Assembly: GCF_026151205.1 (NCBI RefSeq)
Contig: NC_087082.1
Span: 3,947,408 to 4,011,407 of the forward strand
Direction of reading: 5' to 3'
DNA: 64,000 nt
Source of the DNA: Bolinopsis microptera
Lineage: Eukaryota > Ctenophora > Tentaculata > Lobata > Bolinopsidae
This document shows, piece by piece, positions 1,410 to 57,500 of the stretch. The position numbers were made by a program, and so were the translations under genes. A model generated the notes under the pieces. It ran no database searches, was not told the origin of the DNA, and worked only from the letters and a program-made list of their open reading frames with translations. Positions within the stretch are counted from its first letter, which is position 1. Every line of letters starts with the position of its first letter.

Positions 1410-4400
1410 ATGACCAGATCTGAACAACAATACTCGTGTGCTGATCGACCAAGAGACCAAATATTTAAAGATAACTATGACAGGAGACAGTTCCAGGTAT
1501 TAATTCTCTCTATGTTTATAAGTCTATAATTTGTGCTGCTGTGAATTAGTTAAAACAATTCACTTGCAATTGTTGTGGAAAATGTTGACATTAGAACTTG
1601 TAATACTGATACCATGTTGAATGATTGCAATAATTGCTCATTTAAGCAGTTTCTGTTATTTATACTTACTTATAGGTATTATGTATATTATATAATTATC
1701 TGAAATAAATGTCACATAATAATGATGATGAACAATGATGATTGGCACTATAGTAAAATAGTGCTATAATGATCGTTTGACAGATCATGATATTTATGAT
1801 TTGATTTGCTTAACAGGTGAAGAAGTGTGGCTACTGGTCCGATATCTCTAAACCGTACCGGCCTGTGGGGGACGTAGAACTCGACACAAGAATGCTCCTA
1901 CTCAGAACTCTGGACCAGCAAGATCCTTCCTTAAATGTTCGTAGCTTCACTTAATCTTAACCTCCTACGAGATTTGTTCATGATGTTTTCAGCGCCACAA
2001 TTGGTGATAGTACACTGCTATTTTAAGTTTGCAAAACTGCAAAGAAGGCAAGAGAATGTAAGAAGCAGAACTCTTAACATTAAAAAAAAGCATGATTGAT
2101 TGTGGTTTCCGATTGGAAACATTTGGCTCATATTCTTTCAAAGATCAAGTTTATACGGGGGAGTTTATTGTCTAGCTTTGGAACCGAAAGGATTTTAAAT
2201 TACTCTTAAAGACGTAGATACCATAATATGAATAACGATCATTTAGGATTATTCAAAGGATACCTCGAAGCAAATAAAAAACATGGGACAACACAAAAGA
2301 CGAGAGCGCAAATCCTTTAAGGTAAACATTTAACTACTTAACCTTACTAAACATTTCCTCTGACAATTTTTTTACAATGGTGATTCTTAATTTTCAATGT
2401 TATTAAATTATTAATAATTGTTGTTAGTTAAAAGACGTGTCGGAAAAACAAGAACCATACTGCCGTAAAGCCGAGATGATAATAAGGCACGAGTTGAACG
2501 AAGGGAGAAACAGAATGGCGGTTGTAAAGTCCGGGAGTAACTTCTTCGATGTTATCAAGTCCGAACAGAAGGCTAAGGTGTGTACCTATAAAGATGTTAA
2601 ATGTCATGATGGATTTTTGGATCATTCCTACCACTTATAAGTGTCCCCTACAATCCTACAAACCTGATTAGTTTTTATTCCCGATGGAACTATGGCAACT
2701 TGCCTTTTTGTTGGACGCTGGTAGTAATGATCTGAAAGAATCACTCAGTTTAACTTTACTGGTGTAAAACTAATTCCCTTGAAAATCCATGCGAGCAGAT
2801 GTGTTGTGATTTAAGTTTTTAAAATGTCTGCATCCGAAGTTCGGATAAGTTATAATTTGTAAAACCTGACCCGTAAACTAATCTCAACGTGATGTTTTGT
2901 CTTTGCAAATACTTGAACAGGCAACTAATGGTCAGTTTTACAAAATGGCCAGTTTTACGCAAAGTAGATCTACATCTGACCACAATCGCACTAGCAACCG
3001 AGCTGTTGAGCTTGCGAATGTTTGTGGCGAGTGATTTCAAATAAACAAAATAATTGTCTTTGAGAATCTGCTCGGTTTTTTACTCTATCATGAAATTTAC
3101 CAACTCCCATTTGTATCACAAATTACTATTTTGAAGCACAAAAATGGGTTGTTCATTATGTAACCCTCGTAAATTCAAATCCCTCAATTATTTAATGGAT
3201 ACTCTACTGTGCACCTATTGAATTGCTAATAAGCATTGATGAATGGGCAGCAGACACTGGCGGTCTCGGTCTGCACAATCACACAGAGAATTGTAAACAG
3301 AAGCTGGACTGCCACTTTGAGTTTATAATATAATCCATACTGTACACCTAATTTCCGAAGAAAATAAAGAAACCTTCTGCTGAACTACAAAATTTGAGTG
3401 TTTTAAAAGTGTTTCAAAAGTCATTTTAAACGGCCATGTTCCTGATACTAGTAACGTTATTGCTATTTCACTTGTACAGAGCATGTTAAGCAAAGGGACA
3501 CGCTGACTTTATACAGAAGCAACTGTCATGCAATGTCTAAATCAATAGATCGGCCAGTTATCTATGAATGCCTGCTCCATCTCCAGGATTAGTACTATGC
3601 TCATATATAACGAAAGTTTAAATAAGATTTAGAAATTAAGAAAGAGGATTCATGCTTTACGAGATGTGACACGCCGCCACTTGTCTCGTTTATAAAACGT
3701 ATTCTTAGAAAGAATTAAAAACCTGCATTTCTGTGACAGGAAGACGCGATAAAAGCGGAAAAGAAGCCGACATATTCGAGGGAGAATTGGAGACCGGCGC
3801 AAGTGGCCGACGGTTCAGACGAGTAAGTTGTTCCCCTCAACATTCCCCGGAAATTATTATAGTTCCCCTCAACATTCCCCCGACATTATTATAGTTAAAA
3901 CCGCTTAATTTCCGGCTTTTCTGCCTGGTGCAGTGGAAGTAACCTAACATAGAGTAGACCTAATTTCGGAGCAACGTATCCGCTGTGATATTGCGATTTG
4001 TTAAACAATAGTCAGGATGTAAACTACCTCACCATCACAATCTCCCCACTATTAAGGTCGAGCGAGGATGACTCTGAGGGAGAAGAGGGCGCGTTGTGTT
4101 GGGAGGAGAACTCTAAAACTGACTACTGGACCTCACTAGGAATACCCTCTCCTGCCCCATCGTATGTGGTTACTGGTTAAATCTACAGTTAGTTTTGCAT
4201 CTATCGTCATTGGTCTCAGTACATAAAGCTAGGAAATATAATAACAACAAAGTGAAATAATGACACATTCCAATACTCGGCTGATGGTTAATGGCTGCAT
4301 TTGTCAGGACTCCCAGCAGAAGACGAAGCAGCGCAAAAAGCAGACGATCATTAGCTCCACAGCCTGTATACTTCGTGTCGACATCTTCTAGGTACAACAT

Positions 4401-7400
4401 TCATTTTAAAGGGTCGTCAGGATACTAATCACTGTACTACTAATCACTGTAAAAAGTAAGGGTTTTACAATGTAAAGAATTATAGCAAGCGTAGAGACGT
4501 CCTGTACGAACCGTAAGGCTAAGGTCAGGGCGGGACAATTTGGATATATTTGTAAACCGTGATCAATCGAGATGAATTTAGGGTAATATTGTGTAATATG
4601 AAGGTAGTGATTATAATAAGGCGGTCGTGGTATCCAGTATGTGACGGTAGTATTTTGGGTTAGTACGAGGTGCTTTGTGGGACTGTTCAGAGAGGGCTAG
4701 AATTACTAGCTGATGTTGTGGCTAGCTGCGGACAATGGCGTGGCTATCGACGGGATAGTGGGGGATTGTTGAGAGATTGCTAACAGGGAGTGGAATATTG
4801 TTTAGACTATCGAGGGTGAGAGGAAAAGAGGGTTAGCTTTTTGGGATAGGTGAGTGACAGTTTACCCGATCGAGAGGTGGGTCATTTTGATACCGGGCAG
4901 GTTCGGGAGCTAGAACCTGTTAAGACAATGGAAACCTCGTTATCACGCTCGTTTCCATTGTCCAAGCCCTTAATTAAATACGAATAAACTTCGAACCGGG
5001 AAGCAAGTGTCCACTGCTTACATATTTTTAATCGCAGATGGTAATTATTGACATTGCTTCTATAATTCTAAATTTAAAAATACACACAGTCCTATACTTC
5101 AAATTCATCTCCAAATTTACCCTAAAATAAAGAATACAGTTTCTGTACATACCATATATTTCAGTTTTTTTACTTCGTGCATCAAATTAATTACTAGAAT
5201 ATATTTAATATTATATTTACCACAACGTTTGGACCAATATTTGTAGTGGTGATTACTGAAATCATCAACGGATCATGTACCGTTGATTAATATTATATCA
5301 ATATATAATATGTTGATTAATATTATACAGACGGAGCAGTGATCAGATAGTAAGGCATCGTCACTATATAAGGGGGGGGGGGGGGGGGGGTCACTACATT
5401 GGCGGACGTGTCACCCCCCCCCCCCCCCAACATTCCTCAAGAAGACCAAAGAGTTCTTTCCGACTTAGCGATGGATTGATTACAGGATCGAACTATCTGT
5501 CTTCAAATATGCGAATAAAGTAGCTGGGAATTACATATTATATCCAGATATAATAACCCCAGTACGGCTCTCTGGAACCCTGTACACTATCAAATATTAT
5601 ATATTAACTTTTACTTAACATACCATCAACATACCAACAACATACCATCAACATACCACTAACATACCTGTCTCAAATTTGAAAGTGATTGACATGTTTA
5701 GTGCCCGTCACTGTTTAATCCCCCTGCCCACCGAGCAGTGCACATTCTGACAGATTTTACTTTGTTTAATATCAAGATTACAACTAAAGGGGTTTCCGTT
5801 TGAAAAGAAACTTTTATGATAATATAGGAAAGCCTGGTGACGTTATTTTGTTACTTTCCCGGCTTCCTTGTCTCACATCCTTTCATTTAACATTATAATT
5901 CCACAACCTTATACTAGTTTATAGTATGTTGTATATTTCAACATCAGTTGTGTTAGCTTTAAGATAGTGCTGCTGAGAGATCTTGAAAACTCCTGGTTGT
6001 CTTTATGGAAATTAATATTGCACGTATAATTATTAGTTACCTGTTACAGTAGTATCATTAACTAATTACAGTAGTTCAAGATTTAGCAAACTTTTAGGCT
6101 CTCCGCTATTTACTTGTTTAGCACCAAGGACACTTGGGTAATATTGCATTCTGTAACGTTAACAACGTGTGTTTCAGACGTATCTCTTAAAAGTGCAAAT
6201 TATTATTTGAATCTGTCAAATTTTTCTATGGTTGTGTTCATGGTCTGCTCCCAAACTTGTATTTGAAACTTTGAGAAGAAGCCCTTAAGATTGATGCTCA
6301 ACATCAAGTGGCTGCATTTCATATCCAACGATAACTTTTACAAGAATTGTAAGACCTTAATAAACTTACTGATCGAGAAGACTTATCTGGACGAACAATG
6401 TTGTGGTTACTGCCTGTAGCTTTAGCTTTGAGTTTGATAAATTATTAATACTACTAGATTTAGAAGCCCGGGGCGTCATACAATTAGTTTGTTTAACACC
6501 GTTAAGCCTGATTTGAAATTAAGATCAAGTCATAAATAACTTAATTAAGATTGTTCAGTTTATTGGTTTTATTTGTTTACTTTATTTTAAATAAAATTAA
6601 ATAGGAATTCTCAGTATTTATCCATGCACTGACCACATTGACGTAGGATCTATAGCTATTCATTTATTTATTTACAGTTTAATACATTTTGTCACATCAG
6701 TTCAATAATGTTACAACATTGGTTAAAGAATATGACCAACTGTTTAATATTTGGTTACAAGTGTATGTGGTCTATACAGGGCCAGAGTGTCTACTGTTGT
6801 TACTGTTGTTACTGTTGTTACTTTTGTGACTGTTGTTACTGTTGTTACTGTTGTTACTGTTGTTACTGTTGTTACTGTTGTTACTGTTGTTACTGCTGTT
6901 ACTGTTGTTACTGCTGTTACTGTTGCTACTGTTGTTACTGTTGTTACTGTTGTTACTGTTGTTACTGCTGTTACTGTTGTTACTGTTGTTACTGTTGTTA
7001 CTGTTGTTACTGTTGTTACTGTTGTTACTGTTGTTACTGTTGTTACTGTTGTTACTGTTGTTACTGTTGTTACTGTTGTTACTGTTGTTACTGTTGTTAC
7101 TGTTGTTACTTTTGTGACTGTTGTTACTGTTGTTACTGTTGTTACTGTTGTTACTGTTGTTACTGTTGTTACTGTTGTTACAGTTGTTACTGCTGTTACT
7201 GTTGTGACAGTTGTTACAGTTGTTACAGTTGTTACTGTTGTTACTGTTGTTACTGTTGTTACTGTTGTTACTGTTGTTACTGTTGTTACTGTTGTTACTG
7301 TTGTGACTGTTGTTACTGTTGTAACTGTTGTTACTGTTGTGACTGTTGTGACAGTTGTGACAGTTGTTACTGTTGTTACTGTTGTTACTGTTGTTAATGT

Positions 7401-10400
7401 TGTTACTGTTGTTACTGTTGTTACTGTTGTTACTGTTGTTACTGTTGTTACTGTTGTTACTGTTGTTACTGTTGTTACTGTTGTTACTGTTGTTACTGTT
7501 GTGACTGTTGTGACAGTTGTTACAGTTGTTACTGTTGTTACTGTTGTTACTGTTGTGACAGTTGTTACAGTTGTTACTGTTGTTACTGTTGTTACTGTTG
7601 TTACTGTTGTTACTGCTGTTACTGCTGTTACTGTTGTTACTGTTGTTACTGTTGTTACTGTTGTTACTGTTGTTACTGTTGCTACTGTTGTTACTGTTGT
7701 TACTGTTGTTACTGTTGTTACTGTTGTTACTGTTGTTACTGTTGGCTGTTATTCTTCTTTCTGTCCGGGAGAGTCAAGCTTCTGAGTATTTATAAATATA
7801 TATATATATAAATATATTATGATGCAGTAAAACTATTGTTATTTTCAAATACATCATGATTTCCAAGTTTTGAGGGGTTTCACCGGTTGTTAAAATACGA
7901 CTCAACTGAATATGAAGCCATGAATATAGAATAATAAGGTAAATCCCGACTCATCACGGAGTATTTGTTTTTCGGAAACGGGGTAAGTTTATAAAATATG
8001 TGCAGTCTGTACGGGGCCTTCGCAGACAAACACTGTCTACAGAGTTTAAAGTTGTGTATTCTGATGGGGAGGTGAGGTATAGTTTTTTGACAGGTGACAG
8101 TGAATCTGGGGTTTGATTGTTTAATAGTCGAAGCTGATTGGTTAATTTCTGTCACGTGTCAAAAGGATATGTTTCAACCACCCATCTAGTGTTGACCGTT
8201 ACGTACACTAATGCTAAATTGTTAATTTTTATCCGCTACTTTTCATTTACAATTAAGCAGGTAGGTTAGTGATCGCGAGATATTCTCCAGGATCTTAATT
8301 AATTAATTGGGATCTTAATTAAAGTTAATTAATGAAACACCTACGTTAACCAGGGACATAGCATACATCATATTGCCAACCCAATTACGTATTGTATCAA
8401 ATACAGCTGACTTTTCAAAATAACAATTACCATTGCGTACTGTCTGAGGTTGGGAATTAGTACATTACAACTAACTAATTGGGTTTACAGCAATTTCAAC
8501 CTTTCGTGCTGATTATCGCGGTGCAGTAATTCTAATTTGTGGTATTCTAAACCGACTATTTGTATTTCTTCCTAAACCATTACTCATCACCGCAATCACC
8601 ATTCACCAATAATTACGTTACTGGCCAAATTTTCTGTAATAAATATCGTAATTTTTTTCTGTTTATTTCCCAACTTGTCATTTTATTTCCGAGGTGTATT
8701 CCACTGTAAAACGTGAGTTAATTAACCTCTGATATAAATTTGTCAGGATAAACTTGTGTCCTGACAAATTATATAAAACGTCACACTTATCTTGTTGGAC
8801 AGTTCTTGGTTAACTTCAGTTAATAAATTTTACACAGTGCCGCTCTAATTATTTTCTTCTTCGGACAAATTTTTCTCTTTGTTTCTCTGATCTCGTTAAG
8901 ATAGATATCTTGATATGATCTCTTTCTGGTGATATGTTTCGTTCATCAGTCTGGCAGTTTTGGCTTTTCGTTTCCGTTATAATTTGACTGTTGTCGCCAT
9001 TTTTTAAATCCAATTATAATATCTCAACACAACGATAATCCCACGTTACAATACATTTATCCCAAACTCCGACGATAACTTAAAATATAACTTCACTGTT
9101 CTCCAGTGAAAATGGCAAAGTTCCTCCATTCCCACACGCTTCACGTGCTGCAGGTGTCGTACTACATCTTCGTTATCCTGTTCGGGACACTCGGCAACTC
9201 CTTCGTTATCTACGCCTCCTACTTTTACCGCACTTTCCAGATGGGTCGAACCACTGTCACCTTCATCCGACACATCGCACTTTGTGACCTGTGTTTCATC
9301 GTTATACCTGTCCTGCCCTCTCTCATCACCCACTTCAAGCAGGAGTATATATTTGGAGGATCTTTCTGTGTGGCGGAGATATTGATTCAGTCCACGATAG
9401 CTCTTGCACACATTTCGTTTGTGTGCCTGCTGGCACTGCACCGGTTAGGGCGTTGCGTGCGCCCGAACCGTGCGGCGCTGGTCACGCAGACAGTTGGATC
9501 AGTGCTGGTGGTGGGTGTTTATTTGGTCAGTATTTCTGTGGTCATGTTGACTTTGGGGCGGTCTTCAAATAAAGCAGATCAGGGGATCTGTAGAGGTTTT
9601 ATGGGTATGAGCGAAAGCAACATGTTGCACCACAATATGGACCATAATGTTTCAGGGAATGCTATGACAAACATGTCAAGTCATAATATGTCCGATATGC
9701 AGAATATGCAGGATATGCAAGAAATGGCTTCTTCAGAGGGAACTTTTAGACTGATGCATGGTGGGATGCAAATGGCAGAAAAATTAGACACAACAAATTC
9801 AACCGTTATGGCTGTTCCAGCAGAGTCAATCCAGCTGCTCCTAGCAATCCTTGTGCCTTTTATCGGAACAATCTGCGCTAACACTGCTATCTGGATAGTC
9901 ACATGTTCCCGATCCCAGAAGTTCAACTACCGGCCCATCATTACAGTCAGCGTGATATCAGTTCAAGTCATCCTGTCGTGGGTTCCCATGATGGTGATCC
10001 TGATCTTCAAACACTTCGAAGGAAACCAAGACAAACAATCCCACCTGGACCATCTATCCCTGAACCTGCACCTCCTGGGAATCATCACCAACCCCATAGT
10101 GTACACCATGTTCAGCCAGGGTTTCCAGAGCTTCCTGAAGCAGAAGATGTACGATATAATAACATGTTACGTGTGTCAGCCCAGCACTGACGAGTGTGTG
10201 GCTCCTGAAGCAGCGGTGGTGGTAAGGCGTCAGTCTTCTGCTCACGCCTGTGGGATGGTCAGTACGTCGCCTTCTATCAGGCTGTCTCTGAAATCCACAA
10301 CTATGACTTACTCAGGAGAGGGGACTCAAGGTAACCAGCCTTACAAACCACATTATTTAGACTCTAGCGAGGGTGCTCAGGGTAACCAGCCTTACAAACC

Positions 10401-13400
10401 ACATTATTTAGACTCTAGCGAGGGTGCTCAGGGTAACCAGCCTTACAAACCACATTATTTAGACTCTAGCGAGGGTGCTCAGGGTAACCAGCCTTACAAA
10501 CCACATTATTTAGACTCTAGCGAGGGTGCTCAGGGTAACCAGCCTTACAAACCACATTATTTAGATTCTAGCGAGGGTGCTCAGGGTAACCAGCCTTACA
10601 AACCACATTATTTAGACTCTAGCGAGGGTGCTCAGGGTAACCATGCTCACAGACCCCTCTTTTTGGGCGCTTCTATTGGTGTTGGATCTTCTGGGAGACG
10701 CAACTCTATTTGTTAATCAAACCAACTCTATTTTCTACCCTGAAGTCGCAACTCTCTTATTAAATACGCTACGTTGCTCAGTATACAAAGTTAGAGATGT
10801 TATCAGACTTGTAAGACTAGAGAAGGAGTTTTAATGAGGTTGTAGTGGAGCAGTATATGGGAAGGAAGGCAGTCCTGGGACGAATGTCTGGCGGCAATAT
10901 GGTGGCAATAGATAAATAGAGCATTGTTGACACCTGGTGTCCATTTGAAGCTCACCGCCATTTGAAACTGCTCCGTGCCGTTATAACCTTTATGTGCAAT
11001 GTGGTTGGTCACGTGATTACTTTTTGAGGAGGGACGCCAAGTTGTCCGGGAAAAGTTTTGGAGCAAATAAACAAGGTCGAAAACCAACCAAGTTAAAAAT
11101 TTAATAGATTTAATTTTGAGTCTATAATGTAATTTTAATATTAAGATGTGCTTGAATAGAGTTTAAATATCAGATAACGTATAAGAGTATTGAATTATTA
11201 ATACGTTTTATATCTTTATATAGAGTAGTGACCAGTTGTTTTATTTTCATTAATTTAGTGGCGTAGCGGCTACGAATTGTGATGGATTTGTCGTAATGTG
11301 TAAAAACTAACAATCATCAAATCAATTTTTGTAATAATAATTAGTAAATTTGAGTTGTTTTTCTCCTGACTTAGCGTGCATTAGCGAAGATTCAATAAAT
11401 ATTGCTTGTTGTTTTCATGCAGCTCGATCCTCCAAGTTTGATGTTCCTCCCACTTATGTAGATTCAGTAAATTTCAAAACAATTCTTCTGTATACAAAAT
11501 AAATCAAGCAAAAATCATCAACCAATCATAGTTATAATAATTTTCGGCAACAAAGTTGTCTTCCAAATTTAAATCATCAAATTTTTAAAAGTATCATGAA
11601 AATCTTGAAGAGGTTGCGGTATTCAGAATCGAGACAATGATAGAAACTAATACCTTAAAATAGCTAACGGATAATTTTAAAAACCAATCGAACAATCTTC
11701 ATAGAAAAACAAATAAAAAACAAGTCGTTTATAACCTGTAATAGGGTCACGATGTTTTCTTGGGGTACGTATCATGATGTACGTTGTTATGTGTCGTCTG
11801 TCTTTTAAACGTTTGTGTTGCCGCTCCATTGAGCTTGGAACACTGCTCATTTATTCACAAATTTAAGCGCGTCTACCTTATTATGGAAAGTTAAAGCGAT
11901 GGCAATTGAAGGAGTTGTTTGTCTTTGTAACATTGTAAGGGGGCCGACCAGGCAGTGGTCTAACACTTATAATAAAACCACGTAATTATAGTCTACAATT
12001 GCCGAGTTTTAACTACTAAGTGCAGTGAACAAACGCTTCACAGTCCATTTACCTTGCCAGATTGGAACTCTGCTGAACGTTACTGTTAATGTTATTATGA
12101 CTACCAGAGCTATGGCTGTTCATCTGGCCGACTTGTCCCCTACAAGCCCGACATACCACACTAAGTTTAGTCTTAAGAAAGCCTAGAAGTGACTTGTTGA
12201 AGACCGTGTACACCACGGGATTGCTGCACATGGACAGCAGCACCAGGTTAAAGGCTATCTCCTCTATCTTTGCGTAGTCGCTTACATTGCTGTTAGTGTT
12301 TTTTAGGATGTACTTCTGGAACATGTAGATGATGAAGGGGAGCCAGGAGACCAGGATGAAGCCGGAGATAACCGTCACGGTGATCAGGGGTCGCAGGTCG
12401 AACTTGTGGCTTGCCCGACATGCCAACACCCACAATCCAATGTTTGTAGCTATTGTTCCGATGAAGGGGATCAGCATTGCGAAGCCAACATGGATGAACC
12501 TTACTACCAGGACATCTTTTGGTGGGTTGTTAACCACAGCAAAACATCCATGACTACTTATCTCAAACTCACTTCCCTTCAGAGTCATATAGGTTAAAAT
12601 AACCTCAGCTGCTGAGATAACATAAACAACCAGAGCACTGATCTCAATGAAGATGGGCTGGAGAGAGAGGGTGGTGTGGGGCTTGTAACATCTTATTAGT
12701 CGGTGCATCGAGATCAGGAACACAAACTTGAAGTTAGCAGATGTCAGAGCGGGTCTGATGTAGGCGGTGTAGAGACACATGGCACACTCAGTCCGGAACA
12801 GACAGAGCTTACAGAGGTATGTGGAGAGAGCGGGAATGCCAAGGAAGAGGAGACAGAGCACATCACATGCTGTCAGGTGTTTTATCAGGAGGAGGGAGAT
12901 TCTGCAGGTGTTGGCGAGTTCTTTGTACGCTATAGCTGCGTATAAAACGAAACAGTTCCCCAGCAACCCCACTACCACCACTAGTATGTTGTAGGTTATG
13001 AGGAGGTAGAAGTCGAAGGTTTCGCCGTCTTCGCTGTGTTCTTCTGTGCAGATCTTCATGTGAGAACAGTTGAGGTGATGCATCTCACATTCTTTCATCC
13101 CTGTGATGCTACCTTGTAGGATTTATAATTATTCATTTGGGTCATGTGATAAATCGAGGGTCATGTAGTGGTCAAAAATGAGAATATCACTAATCAGTGA
13201 TTTATTTTTTTCCATGGTTTATTGTTGTACGGCCTACAAATCATCAAATAAAATAACACATGCGAATCTATAAATAAAAATAAAATACTTTAGCATAGGG
13301 TACATACAGAAACCAGATGCAAAATCTATTAAATATATGACGTCACGCTGTATAAAAACTGCTAAAATTACCCAGCGTAGCAGAGGTAATTCCCTCACCA

Positions 13401-16400: not shown

Positions 16401-19400
16401 ATTACACTACACAACAAATTCACTGCGACAGCTAAGACTCAGATATTGATGATGAAACCCACAATCCATTATCCGGTAAGGTAATATGTGTTTTAGTGTA
16501 CTACAGAGTGCACGTGTCGCGCTAATAGTTTACACGTGTGGAGGAAGGAGTGTTGCTATGGTAACCTGGGACTCTGGGAGCTAATTGTAGATAGGATCAT
16601 GTAGGGACGGCGAAATACAACCGTTGGTTCTGCCCGGTTGTGTACTCAAAGCTTCTCAGTGACAAGACATAAACTGTGGAAAATAGCAGGGATATAGCAG
16701 GGATATAGCAAATCTTGGCAACGTTTCAACAGCTCCTTTGATCTTACTATGTATAATGGGCCATTTGGCAGACCCTGCTAATTAAAATAATCACTTAGCT
16801 TCAAACCGAGAAGTGGTGAGCATGTTTATTCATTGATAAGATCTATCCTAGATCTGTTACACGCTTATCGTAATATGTAGATACCAGTTGAACTCTTTGT
16901 CCCTCAGTACGTGTTGTGATTATGCATTAATGCATTAGATCTACCAGGGTCAGGGAAATTATCAATTTTGTGAACTATTTTGAAGTAAAGTTTGATGTTT
17001 TCTAAAATTTAAAGATTGTGCAGGGTCGCCCCTCAGCTCTCAGCTCTCAGGAGGAACGATCAACTGTATTTAAATACCAAAATAAGCTAAGTTGATCATG
17101 GATGGTGCCTACTAAACTTCAAATTATCAAACTAAAGAAATGGAAAATGAGTTTTTCTGAAGTGCTGAAAAATTCGCTGACAGGAGAAGAAACTCAAAAG
17201 AATAACACCGCTGAGAAAAATAAATACAAACGAAATCAGGATACCAGGTTAATCAGGGTCCTCGGTAAACCGTGGTTTTAATTTACACTGAATGTATGTA
17301 AATTAGAAACACCCTGTATACCTTACGAGACATATTTAAATGGTACGAAAGTCGGTGGTTTTTCGAAAAAGACACCATATTTTCGGACCTAAATTTAGGC
17401 CACCATCATTATTTTCCCCAAATTATTTTTACGTATTTTCCTTAATTATGAGTTTATCGATTTACTATCAATCAATATCAATAAAGTAAGTTATAAATAT
17501 GATTCATCAAACAATTAATGAACACTAGTATTCGATCATGAATTGTTTTAAAAATGATTTTGGACACGTTCCAGTAAAAATAAGCAAGCTCTGTCACTAC
17601 TTTATTGGCCACGGCGGTGAAATTTCGGGATTAGTGCATCTAGTGACCTAGTGGAAGATAACAACACTGTCGGTCCCCTATACCCTCTGGAGGATTATAA
17701 GTTAAGTTGAGGCTTTCATTTTTGTAAAATAAGGAGATGAAAAAAATCCCCAAATACCATGATTTAATTTGGGGTACGAAATGTGACGGTTTTCGGTAAA
17801 AATTCTCATATTTTCGTTCCACAATCATCTAGGTCACCGGAATTATGTCTCGTAAGGTAATTGGGGTTCCAATACAACGGAGTAAGATAAATCAGGGTGG
17901 ACTATTTTGGGTCCGGGACTCTAGGGCGTAAGACTCTAGGGCGTGAGACTTTAGGGCGGCGCCCTAACCCTAACCATCACCCTAACCCTAACCCTAGACT
18001 ATTTTTGTTGTTAATACAAAGTACGGAAATAGAAAGTAGAAATAATCGATGTACAATAAGCAAAGGAAGAGGATAGGTTACAGATCATTGCGATTTCTTC
18101 AAAACACAATTGCCAAGTTGTCAAATATCAATCCTAATATTGAGCAGATGATTGCTCTATTATAAGGAGGGACCTCCCAAAGAGGACCGGATATTATTTC
18201 ACCCGTGAGACCGTGACTGGAGCATTTAAACAGTAACACCAAATGTAGATGATCAAATCTAGTACTTGTTACTGATGAACTATCCAGCAAATAAGCCTTA
18301 TATTACAGCCTGGACACTTTTATTGGAAGCTCTTGCGCGTTATGTTATGGAGCTACATTTTGACGAATGTCATGATAATGAGCATAAAAAATAGGGCAAC
18401 GAACGAATATAAGTTAAAACAGTATCATAGTAATACTGCTGTATTCGCATAATCTACGACCATATGAAGTGGGGTTTGTGACGTCATAAGATCTTTAGCT
18501 CCAGCAAATTTGACCCATCATTAGTTCTAATTTGCTGCCTGTTGAAAACATTACAGCAGTGTTTATCTATAAATCAACCCGCCAATCAAATTAATGGGAT
18601 ATATATCATGCCCTAATAAGGGCACAAAACAGTATTTTCTGACTAATCAGGAGCTGAAATTATTCTCAAGAACCGTGTCACCCTCTCTGAAGGCAAAACC
18701 GGAAGATTTGTAAACACGTCACACGATAAATTTCAAACATAGTCTCATCGTAATCTGGACGAAGAGATGGCTAAATTGTCTAAATACAATACATCTGGCC
18801 AGCAAGTCACGGACACCCCACTTCTTCCGCGACTTGCAGTTAGGTTTCATAACATATTATTATTGTAAACACTATAGCCATCTGTGAGATGAAAACTTGA
18901 AATTTAGGTAATCCCTCCACAATAGTATAAACTATAATGAAACGTAGAATATATATGTAATTCGTTGGGCTACTAATAACGTTGTATTTTCTAGTAAGGA
19001 TATTATGGTTTGGTACAGCTGCTGGTGCGCGTTAGTGATATTTTAATTGGTTAATTGATATTTTAATTGGTTAATTGATATTTTAATTGGTTAATTGATT
19101 CTCATCAGATTTGTTGTTGGTATTTCGAACTTTGAGTCAGCTATGAGCGGACCTGGTAACTATGGTAACACTGGTAACTATGGTAACACTGGTAACTATG
19201 GTAACACTGGTAACTATGGTAACACTGGTAACTATGGTAACACTGGTAACTATGGTAACACTGGTAACTATGGTAACACTGGTAACTATGGTAACACTGG
19301 TAACTATGGTAACACTGGTAACTATGGTAACACTGGTAACTATGGTAACACTGGTAACTATGGTAACACTGGTAACTATGGTAACACTTTGGTCGCTGAA

Positions 19401-52233: not shown

Positions 52234-52256
52234 ATCTAAAGTTATCGACTTTATTT

Positions 52257-52665
52257 TACACTACGTCTTCGGACATTTATAATTTCATTTAACACCACGT
52301 CTCCGGACACTGATTTTATTTTACACCACGTCTCCGGACACTGATTTTATTTTACACCACGTCTCCGGACACTGATTTTATTTTACACCACGTCTCCGGA
52401 CACTGATTTTATTTTACACCACGTCTCCGGACACTGATTTTATTTTACACCACGTCTCCGGACACTGATTTTATTTTACACCACGTCTCCGGACACTGAT
52501 TTTATTTTACACCACGTCTCCGGACACTGATTTTATTTTACACCACGTCTCCGGACATTTATGATTTTATTTTACACCACGTCTACGGACACTGATTTTA
52601 TTTTACACCACGTCTACGGACACTGATTTTATTTTACACCACGTCTCCGGACATTTATGATTTTA
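52257..52665. repeat. 31-bp minisatellite downstream of the small membrane-protein gene
   Basis: About thirteen copies of a 31-bp unit (CACCACGTCTCCGGACACTG then ATTTTATTTTA), the first 25 bases after the stop codon at 52233. Internal units are nearly identical; the first and the last few have variants (TCTTCGG, TCTACGG, CATTTATG). Each unit has TCCGGA and can pair with its neighbours. It is probably transcribed as 3' UTR unless polyadenylation comes first; no AATAAA precedes it. Confidence 0.92.
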
Positions 52666-54507
52666 TTTTATTCTATTTTAAGTCCGTTTTACGGCCCATG
52701 CAACACGTTGCCTCTGGGTCACAGTGGGGGGAGCAAGCTCAACTGCTTGCTCTTCGTGCCAGCCTCTTAGCTCTATTAAACCCTGTCGAATGACAGGATT
52801 TGACAGGACTAGGGGTCCCACTGCCGCGGATCTGATCCGGCTGATGATCCTGGAGTGCGGTCAACTCCATCCCTACTCCCCAATGTCCCATTAATGAAAA
52901 AAACATAGAAGTAAGTGCCCTCTACGACAGACAAGTGATAAACAAGAACTTCTAAGAAATCAGTTTACTTCAAGTTAAAAAGTTTTGTGTTTTGCAGTTT
53001 TTGGATGTACATAGAAGCTCATGATATGACTCAGCACCATTGACCATGCCATAAACATGTGGCTTGATAATTTCAATGTTTGGGCAATCATTAGTTCACA
53101 TCAATCAGGTGGCAGAATTACAAATTTACAACAATTTCTGAAGCAGCAGAAAAATTTTCAGCTGCACCCCTATCTTAATCTTGTTAACGAAAATCGCTGA
53201 TAAATCGATTTAGGGCAATGATCAAATCATTTTGGCTCGATAGTTTAATTGCAAAGTTTTTGATTCTAGGATTCAACCGATAAAAATGTGATATTTGAGG
53301 ATGGTACTGAGATAACTTGCACTGTGTTGCAAAAAGTCAGGTACTGAAAGTTAGATAATACCAAGAAAGCTTTGATAAACGGAAAATCATCAGAACAGAA
53401 GGGAAGGAGACATTTTGGAAAATTTTTGAATAGAATCTTTTCTGCCGTTTCCTTGAACGAGATTTTACAGTTTTGACTGACCAATCAGTGAGGTCAGTGT
53501 GAAGGACACAAGTCACCATCGAGGTATTGGATGCTAAATATCCGGAGAAAACTTTGATGAAAGGAAAATTATGAAAATGTCCTACCGGTAGGACATTTTT
53601 CTCCGCGACCAAATTTCACTGTTTTTACTCAATTTTTCTTGAATGACCAATACCTGTAGATCTACACAATTTCTAGGTTGGTGAAACCAAGGAGCTCAAT
53701 ATATAATCCCTTCGGTAAAACAAGAAACTAGGATTGTCAACAAAAATATAATGTTACCATAAAATACTATGTACAATAATAATAATATTAATTAAAGACA
53801 CTGTCTTGTAAAACACAGCTTAAAGCATTTATAAACATCGATAGTAAACACTACTACTACACAATAATTGAAAATATTTTACCCCTCAATTCCACAATCA
53901 AGGTGAATTAGATAACCAGCCTCTAAATAAGGTACTTCTGAAAACTAAACCTAAAGTCAGAAGCCCAATTACAGCTAAAATTATCTTCTTTTTTATGTCA
54001 AAACGAGATGAATTGCACATTCCAGCTAAGTTGTGGACTATCGGGAGTGTAATCAAAGGTTAAAGATTAAAGGAGCTCTCGTAAAGTCATTGTCAGAAAC
54101 TCAAAATTCTAAATTAAGGTTTAAACATCATCTAGTCAAATAATATTCTCTGTGCAAAAAAAGGTCGTAAAGATCTTTAAAACGCATTACTAGATACTAT
54201 CTATATTTAAGGGAAAATTAACAGAAAATGAACAGAAAATGAACAGAAATGAACATAAAATGAACAGAAAATGAACATAAAATGAACAGAATCAATGTTA
54301 GACCTACTGTACAGAACGGTAAGAAATGAAAATCCAGAAATATTTTACATGATATGAACACACAGGCACTATTTTACACTGAATATTAACAAGTATGGAT
54401 TATAATGCTATCTCTACAAAAATATCTCCGTCGTCTTTGAGCCTGTCTCTACAAAAAAATGTCACTGTGTACCACACTGTTCCTACAAAAAATATCCTTG
54501 TGTTTGA
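52666..54507. other. Intergenic region
   Basis: No gene supported. It holds a moderately GC-rich segment (about 52690-52890) with a GAGCAAGC/GCTTGCTC stem that resembles a repetitive element of unknown class, a perfect 26-bp palindrome AAAATGTCCTACCGGTAGGA... (53574-53599), and a tract of GAACAGAAAAT-type units (about 54222-54290). The right end is the 3' flank of the antisense SAXO gene. Confidence 0.45.
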
Positions 54508-57500
54508 CTAAGCCACGGTAGGTTGAACGACCCTTGCAGCAGATAGCTTGTTATTAACAGAGCTGTTGTAGAATTTGTGGCCTGATTTGAGTAGGTCGGG
54601 TGTGGGTGGGAGGCGGGGCACAAGGCACACTGTCCTCTCTTTCTTCTTGAAATCTCGCTGAGGAGGAGAGATGGTTTAGAGATTTTGAGGTGTTTCGAGA
54701 TTTGGAGATAATTATATTAATATGAGATATATTGAGTGAGTTTATAGATTTCTTAGAATGACAGAATAAATTAGACTTGTGTGAAAGTCGTTTATGAATA
54801 TTTCTAATCAAGAAAGTTCCACAGGGTTCCAGAACAACAGAGCTGAACTTACCGAGTAAGTAGTTATCCCATCAAGAGGTTTGTCTGACTTAGTGTAAGT
54901 GTTGGGGGGAGCGAGAAGCCCGGCTGGCAGTCCTGCACACTCGTTGTAGTGCTCCTGATAATTAACAGTTTTATCACGTGATCAAACCATCTGCATTATC
55001 CACCGAAAGTTGGGTGCTGTACTTTATTGTAATTTACCAGACGGCAACAGGCAACTTATATATCATAACAAACGTACGAGGTCCAATTTGCTCTCATACC
55101 AACTTGCCACTAACCATCTGCCGACTAACCTTGTAAGTACTGAGACCCTGACTAACCTTGTAAGTACTGAGACCCTGACTAACCTTGTAAGTACTGAGAC
55201 CCTGACTAACCTTGTAAGTACTGAGACCCTGACCAACCTTGTAAGTACTGAGACCCTGACTAACCTTGTAAGTACTGAGACCCTGACTAACCTTGTAAGT
55301 ACTGAGACCCTGACTAACCTTGTAGATACTTAGACCCTGACTAACCTTGTAAGTACTGAGACCCTGACTAACCTTGTAAGTACTGAGACCCTGACTAACC
55401 TTGTAGATACTTAGACCCTGACTAACCTTGTAAGTACTGAGACCCTGACTAACCTTGTAAGTACTGAGACCCTGACTAACATTGTAAGTACTGAGACCCT
55501 GACTAACCTTGTAAGTACTGAGACCCTGACTTACCTTGTAAGTACTGAGACCCTGACTAACCTTGTAAGTACTGAGACCCTGACTAACCTTGTAAGTACT
55601 GAGACCCTGACCAACCTTGTAAGTACTGAAACCCTGACTAACCTTGTAAGTACTGAGACCCTGACTAACCTTGTAAGTACTGAGACCCTGACTAACCTTG
55701 TAGATACTTAGACCCTGACTAACCTTGTAAGTACTGAGACCCTGACTAACCTTGTAAGTACTGAGACCCTGACTAACCTTGTAAGTACTGAGACCCTGAC
55801 TAACCTTGTTAGTTCTAAGACCCTGACTAACCTTGTAAGTTCTAAGACCCTGACTATTGACTAACCTTGTAAGTACTGAGACCCTGACTAACCTTGTAAG
55901 TACTGAGACCCTGACTAACCTTGTAAGTACTGAGACCCTGACTAACCTTGTAAGTACTGAGACCCTGACTAACCTTGTAAGTACTGAGACCCTGACTAAC
56001 CTTGTAAGTACTGAGACCCTGACTAACCTTGTAAGTACTGAGACCCTGACTAACCTTGTAAGTACTGAGACCCTGACTAACCTTGTAAGTACTGAGACCC
56101 TGACTTACCTTGTAAGTACTGAGACCCTGACTAACCTTGTAAGTACTGAGACCCTGACTAACCTTGTAAGTACTGAGACCCTGACTAACCTTGTTAGTTC
56201 TAAGACCCTGACTAACCTTGTAAGTACTGAGACCCTGACTAACCTTGTAAGTACTGAGACCCTGACTAACCTTGTTAGTTCTAAGACCCTGACTAACCTT
56301 GTAAGTTCTAAGACCCTGACTATTGACTAACCTTGTAAGTACTGAGACCCTGACTAACCTTGTAAGTACTGAGACCCTGACTAACCTTGTAAGTACTGAG
56401 ACCCTGACTAACCTTGTAAGTACTGAGACCCTGACTAACCTTGTAAGTACTGAGACCCTGACTAACCTTGTAAGTACTGAGACCCTGACTAACCTTGTAA
56501 GTACTGAGACCCTGGAAGGGTGGTGGTGTGGTCCTCACGTGGTAGTCCTGAGCTGGGGTGGCTGGTTTCACATTCCATCCCTGGAATGTATCTCGGTGGG
56601 TCGTGCTTGTTGCCATGGCACCAGAGGGACGTCTGTACTCCAGTCTTGGCTTGCAACTCACCTTTTGGGGGTTTACAGTTAATCTCTGAAAGATCTCCAT
56701 TCATAACTATCCTATATTTCAGTTATCTATTACTATTAATTAATTGTCATCACTGTGACCGTTACAAACGTCAGAATGATAAAAACTAGCAATCAGTCAC
56801 AAGTGTGAACCCTACCGGTCGAGCGGTTTTAGCCCCAAAGTCGTCCCTGTAACAAGTCTTACTCTCCAGGGGACCATCTGGAGGAATGTGAGCAGAGGGG
56901 ACCCGCTGTTTGGGGGGAGCCACTGGCCACGCTACAAAGTTCTCACGGAATGTAGTTGAGCTATGGAGATAAGAAAGTTGTGGAATGTTGCAAGATCTGT
57001 TACTAAATGACCATTTTTAGGTCGTAAAATCAGATTAATTAAAAAATTAACCAATTAAGAAATTAACATAAGATTTAAAAGTGTGTTATTTACCCGTAAA
57101 ACTCGCCCCGTTCCATGTTACCCTGCTGAGGTAGACAAGGTGATGGTCGTCTAGTTGGTCGACCAGTGAAGTCATTCTGGAAGGTGGTCGTTCCTGTTTT
57201 ACCCGTTGTGGGCACAAACTGTATCGACTTTCTGGGATGTAATGATAATACTAATGATAGTATACAATTAGGGGAAGTAAAATTCGAGGCATTTATTTGG
57301 CAGTTATTTAATCACTGTGAAAACACGGTGTAGAGATGAAAAATTCCAGCTTTGTCCAATTCAACTAGAAATTGTGTCTCGATTCTCAAGACGAGAACTT
57401 AGCAGAACGGGGCAAAATCCTCAACCCAGCTGAAATAATCACTAACCTGACACTTTTCTTGGGTAGGTCCCAGGCAGCATAGTCGCTCTTGTGATTTGTT

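Follow-up and report, generated by a model that had tools for sequence, protein, structure and literature searches.

The window analysed here is a stretch of 64,000 nucleotides of the Bolinopsis microptera genome (NC_087082.1, positions 3,947,408 to 4,011,407). On its minus strand lies a gene that codes for a cilium protein, SAXO, and one intron of this gene is largely occupied by a minisatellite whose unit straddles the 5' splice junction of that same intron. The features concerned are listed below in window coordinates; a slash in a motif marks a splice junction.

54508-54657, minus strand: last SAXO coding exon, RDFKKKERT...VVQPTVA stop (read by eye)
54853-54954, minus strand: following SAXO exon, EHYNECAGLPAGLLAPPNTYTKSDKPLDGITTYS
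54955-55122, minus strand: intron sequence not covered by the array (168 nt), including the acceptor TTATCAG
55123-56514, minus strand: 27-bp junction-spanning tandem array (TRF, unit division); 56514-56494 are 21 exon bases, the remainder is intron
55832-55865, minus strand: unit 24, identical in sequence to unit 7
56298-56331, minus strand: unit 7, with a 7-bp insert and an in-frame TAG at 56322-56320
56332-56493, minus strand: units 1-6, the only ones wholly readable in frame (VSQGLSTYK six times), flanked by donors 1-7
56494-56685, minus strand: SAXO exon of 192 nt, ending in QGLSTYK, phase 0 (sequence, profile and structure-sequence alignment)

The original prediction had assigned the gene, the exon and its frame from the letters of the sequence, and the assignment stands. 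The protein, spliced by eye, matches the SAXO1-2 profile PF05217 with an E value of 1.3e-17 and 64.4 bits (curated cut-off 26.5); a search of the unspliced genome with this profile found no match. When the two exons flanking the array are joined at donor 1, the exon-proximal donor, they align with the solved SAXO1 chain 8ou0_D at a whole-sequence E value of 2.5e-5, and the pairing of exons 56685-56494 and 54954-54853 is credible on these alignments.

The intron is 1539 nt long, its 3' end reads TAATTATCAG, and the next exon starts with GAGCACTAC. Tandem Repeats Finder (TRF) describes 55123-56514 as a single array of period 27, with 51.0 copies and 94% matches, which covers 1371 of the 1539 nt (89%). 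Each unit consists of 21 bases matching the end of the exon followed by the intron start GTTAGT, so that the unit does straddle the junction as predicted, and the expected number of about 50 copies proved accurate for the assembly: dividing the array at the splice junction yields 50 units downstream of donor 1 (48 of 27 bp and two of 34 bp) and 51 donor positions. Most of these positions, 46 of 51, read AAG/GTTAGT, and the two AAG/GTAAGT copies noticed earlier are there as well; two others read AAG/GTTGGT and one AAT/GTTAGT, leaving the signal AAG/GT intact at 50 of 51. The commonest unit sequence is shared by 36 of the 50 units, and several variants are ordered in a pattern along the array. 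Both 34-bp units (7 and 24) carry the same 7-bp insert, AATAGTC, and the identity of these two units suggests block duplication within the array.

Tandem arrays may be assembled wrongly, and the real copy number could in principle be very different from that of the assembly. We regard such an artefact as highly improbable, given the patterned order of the unit variants and the occurrence of such arrays at several loci; the copy number could be off, and the array itself would stay. A search of the genome (264.65 Mb) for the unit with up to three mismatches returned 51 matches, every one of them inside this array, and the reversed pattern returned none in the same search; the array is therefore not a product of chance, and by this search it occupies one locus in the genome.

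Other repeats occur in the window. At 10318-10643 a 51-bp (17-codon) unit is repeated 6.4 times within an apparently coding open frame on the plus strand (GAQGNQPYKPHYLDSSE...); at 19153-19388 an 18-bp unit is repeated 13 times, also on the plus strand and open after an ATG (MSGPGNYGNTGNYGNT...); and at 52250-52670 a 31-bp array lies soon past the stop of a plus-strand frame ending in ...DYDFSNFSFGV*.

Reading frame and donor choice in the SAXO intron

Since 27 bases are nine codons, each successive donor adds one VSQGLSTYK, and donors 1-7 of the 51 maintain the frame into the next exon. The first in-frame stop had been predicted after about seven units; it is a TAG within unit 7 (56322-56320), reached after six complete VSQGLSTYK repeats and past seven frame-keeping donors. 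The other 44 donors break the frame or run into this TAG. The SAXO1 alignments bear on which donor is the ancestral one: in six of six local alignments to 8ou0_D the K/E junction appears without an insert, although each stretch is weak on its own and the six represent different repeats of this one protein. As the aligned SAXO1 repeats have no insert at K/E, donor 1 is probably the ancestral, conserved SAXO junction.

It is conceivable that donors 1-7 are used alternately, giving SAXO isoforms with zero to six extra VSQGLSTYK half modules, so that splice-site choice would set the length of a linker. The open frame through units 1-6 and the frame-keeping donors are what one would expect of such a device, which could involve no donors beyond 2-7 and which nothing but the open frame of the array favours. 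An insert would, however, split the TYK/EHY spacing, which is free of inserts in all six SAXO1 alignments, and units 1-6 have the same sequence as the commonest unit, so that they show no sign of special constraint. We consider this linker quite unlikely; if it existed, ciliary peptides VSQGLSTYKVSQ and VSQGLSTYKVSQGLSTYK would be expected.

Donors 8-51 might instead be used in some transcripts, which would meet the TAG and be degraded, the length of the array thereby setting the level of SAXO. That 44 of 51 donors lead to a stop, and that the donor sequences are nearly equal, would fit such leakage. The amphioxus arrays described below were, however, reported to occur without aberrant mRNAs (PMC3087553, PMC3902484), and we judge leakage of this kind unlikely.

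The unit ends had also been read as potential acceptors, and 50 CAG/GG strings were indeed counted inside the array. Micro-intron or recursive splicing from an AAG/GTTAGT donor to one of these strings would excise pieces of 9 nt plus multiples of 27, which seems implausible, and the unit is without a clear pyrimidine tract; such splicing is barely conceivable.

Junction arrays elsewhere in the genome

Three donor-like words, AGGTAAGT, AAGGTTAGT and AGGTGAGT, were searched for as spaced triplets over the genome, giving 958, 555 and 812 matches, respectively, against 0, 38 and 192 for the reversed words. These counts are of overlapping triplets, so that large arrays dominate the totals. Dinucleotide-matched controls, which cover AGGTAAGT and AGGTGAGT of the three words, gave 662 matches for AGTAAGGT against 958 for AGGTAAGT, and 1388 for AGTGAGGT against 812 for AGGTGAGT. 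A preference of arrays for donor words, which do look enriched over the reversed words, was thus not upheld against the stricter, matched controls. By that measure arrays show no clear excess of donor words, and minisatellites are simply common in this genome; the matched control words are found in arrays just as often, so there is no need to postulate that donors were targeted.

The flanks of individual loci were read by eye, not blind, among the first 100 places listed for each word, which lie on the first contigs. Arrays at a donor junction in the sense of the motif were seen at two of the five loci listed for AAGGTTAGT (L014, L015) and at six of the ten listed for AGGTGAGT (L024-L029), with L030-L033 left without assignment. 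Read in the orientation of the motif, none of the seven independent arrays listed for AGGTAAGT, whose nine loci were all inspected, lies at a donor junction. Two of the seven, each present in a pair of paralogs (L005/L006 and L010/L011), read as donor-junction arrays on the opposite strand, with GTACTT donors; the unit of L010/L011 starts at the first intron base and includes no exon copy. The array at L008, from the same search, lies at an apparent acceptor, and L007, L009 and L012, which are counted within the seven, have no junction assignment. Among the remaining AAGGTTAGT loci, the array at L016 abuts a first exon, and no exon was seen in the flanks of L017 read by eye. A contrasting case is L018, where a 13-bp unit, ATAACTAACCTTT (sense AAAGGTTAGTTAT), repeated about 236 times, fills an intron of the proteasome subunit gene PSMB4 from 84 nt past its donor to 15 nt ahead of its acceptor; in the fetched piece, AAGGTTAGT occurs 167 times in the sense orientation.

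None of ten control loci, five of the eight listed for AGTAAGGT (L019-L023) and five of the six for AGTGAGGT (L034-L038, the sixth being L009), carries a donor-junction array. Two of the ten lie near acceptors. At L038, an array spans the acceptor of an importin-9 exon (E = 7.3e-17), its unit including the acceptor CCCCAG/GTGTATA; the 142.7 copies of 31 bp reach the edge of the fetched piece, so that there are at least 142. At L019, a 33-bp intron array ends shortly upstream of the acceptor of a frame that reads NGGPLCRLSECIQASVDDFKAANEDNDDLPSASPQ. Of the AGGTAAGT arrays, that of L013 is interrupted by a non-LTR retrotransposon, whose long open frame (3052-6702) has a 34-bp array on either side, both built of one unit.

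The support for genes at these loci is uneven. L026 encodes a ubiquitin hydrolase (USP; UCH E = 3.5e-15, exons joined by eye), the array exon contributing about 12 residues to the match. L014 encodes an EF-hand protein of the CIB or calcineurin-B type, with CIB2 as its best PDB match (E = 5.5e-10), calcineurin B scoring nearly as high as CIB and the Pfam EF hand falling below its cut-off. L028 is DPH2-like (TIGR00272, E = 2.1e-7, 30 bits against a whole-protein cut-off of 184), and searches of Pfam and PDB with it gave no match. The array exon of L024 is a Sushi candidate below cut-off (E = 0.024), another domain of that strand has an E value of 7e-5, and at L015 a RhoGEF domain lies on the same strand (E = 3.6e-8, in two pieces parted by X). 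Scanned alone, the array exons of L015, L025, L026 and L029 had no convincing Pfam match, the exons of L005/L006, L010/L011, L007 and L008 had none in Pfam, and that of L027 is too short for a scan. The assignments at L025, L027, L029, L005/L006 and L010/L011 are based on an open frame and an acceptor, and for the two pairs also on the near identity of the paralogs.

We compared the donor arrays as a class of 11 independent arrays at 13 loci, with exon frames set by eye. The number of donors per array ranges from 3 to 51, and the sequence ahead of the donor is identical over 21 (SAXO), 26 (L024) and 29 bases (L005). Copy number differs between paralogs (37 against 26 in L005/L006, 28 against 3 in L010/L011), so that the arrays may change length fast. 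The unit length is divisible by three in two of the 11 (SAXO and L014), and in seven no donor but the first preserves the frame, the exceptions being SAXO (7 of 51 donors), L014 (5 of 6), L024 (3 of 29) and L027 (2 of 10). The divisible unit of L014, with five of its six donors in frame, is one further point for an alternately spliced linker; two in 11, however, does not exceed a third, and together with the seven arrays in which only donor 1 serves, these frames argue against a designed linker.

The original prediction had offered two readings, a linker or Mn-module dosage encoded by splice-site choice, and a neutral expansion that the spliceosome ignores. The latter is better supported, because the SAXO1 spacing fits donor 1, 44 of the 51 donors would break the frame or run into the TAG, and in nine of the 11 arrays the unit length is not a multiple of three; nothing beyond the open frame favours the former.

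Origin of the array and its relation to known systems

We think it likely that the SAXO array is a neutral minisatellite seeded at the junction, with the exon-proximal donor in use. A 27-bp piece across the exon-intron junction would have been duplicated in tandem and would have grown through slippage or unequal exchange and through block duplication. Because the duplicates of a donor land on the intron side, such growth could be tolerated: the array would be wholly intronic, the spliceosome would nearly always take the exon-proximal donor, and the surplus copies would be removed with the intron. If used, donors 2-7 would insert multiples of VSQGLSTYK, and donors 8-51 would yield a premature stop. 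Genes of the DPH2 kind, to judge from their predicted frames, could hardly tolerate such arrays unless the exon-proximal donor were used.

Several points weigh on the other side. The 51 donors are nearly alike, and donor 1 does not stand out as more exposed when the RNA is folded locally (its unpaired probability is 0.060, the median 0.094). In classical experiments in which a donor was duplicated, it was often the copy nearer the intron that won, whereas a neutral junction-seeded array needs the exon-proximal one. Four of the 11 arrays (SAXO, L014, L024 and L027) have at least one later donor in frame, and donor words do outnumber their reversed forms in the triplet search. Since the identity ahead of the donor extends over 21 to 29 bases and donor 1 of SAXO is no better exposed, a mark of donor 1 would sit farther upstream, or in its position or order.

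Amphioxus "mirage" minisatellites, as described in two reports (PMC3087553, PMC3902484), are tandem duplications across 5' or 3' exon-intron boundaries in Adh3, globins and troponin C, with similar repeats in PGBD5; many copies retain AG/GT, their length varies, and regular splicing was reported undisturbed. The mirage of BflGb6 has six and three units in two haplotypes (PMC3087553). The SAXO array is like these in that its unit spans the boundary and its copies keep the splice signals, and it belongs to the mirage kind; it differs in its ctenophore host, in its 51 donors and in being known here from the genome alone. A ctenophore host is also made likely by one glutamate receptor of this genome, searched from among the 32 matches listed: it scores highest with the Mnemiopsis iGluR ML032222a (208 bits), ahead of a kainate-like protein (179 bits) and of kainate receptors (159 bits). 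The literature on ctenophore minisatellites or tandem repeats, introns, splice sites and mirages, covered in part, held no earlier report of such arrays. In human segmental-duplication genes, variable internal tandem repeats of about 30 bp lie at exon-intron boundaries, and in paralogs these are reported to alter splicing and to be able to form new introns (PMC2812944). The minisatellites are similarly placed, whereas the donor-1 junction of SAXO fits the SAXO1 spacing instead.

Tandem duplication acting on intron structure is also the force shared with intron gain. Such gain has a model based on tandem duplication of AG/GT (PMC3087553). Both splice sites of the new intron then come from the duplicated segment, and in SAXO the acceptor TTATCAG/GAG is not part of the array but of a different sequence of 168 nt. 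As far as can be seen, the array thus enlarged the intron rather than creating it. Intron gain through tandem genomic duplication has been described (PMC4974935).

How one 5' splice site is picked from a row of identical ones is a long-standing problem, commonly approached with a few engineered copies. The genes described here, whose natural arrays hold from 3 to 51 donors with identity over up to 29 bases ahead of the donor, offer a test of how a start is chosen among equals, in which the unit lengths would mostly expose a wrong donor choice as a frame shift. It may be, and we put this a little short of even, that arrays at donor junctions, and at acceptor junctions too, form a regular class present in dozens of genes or more, housekeeping genes included ("dozens" being extrapolated from six arrays for one motif among ten loci on one contig), and that the spliceosome picks the exon-proximal site among up to 51 near-equal donors of equal local context by exon-side or positional information and not by the donor as such. 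If so, this genome would be a large natural assay of the rule of donor choice. The SAXO array further suggests that mirages, described in amphioxus, would extend to a distant animal lineage.
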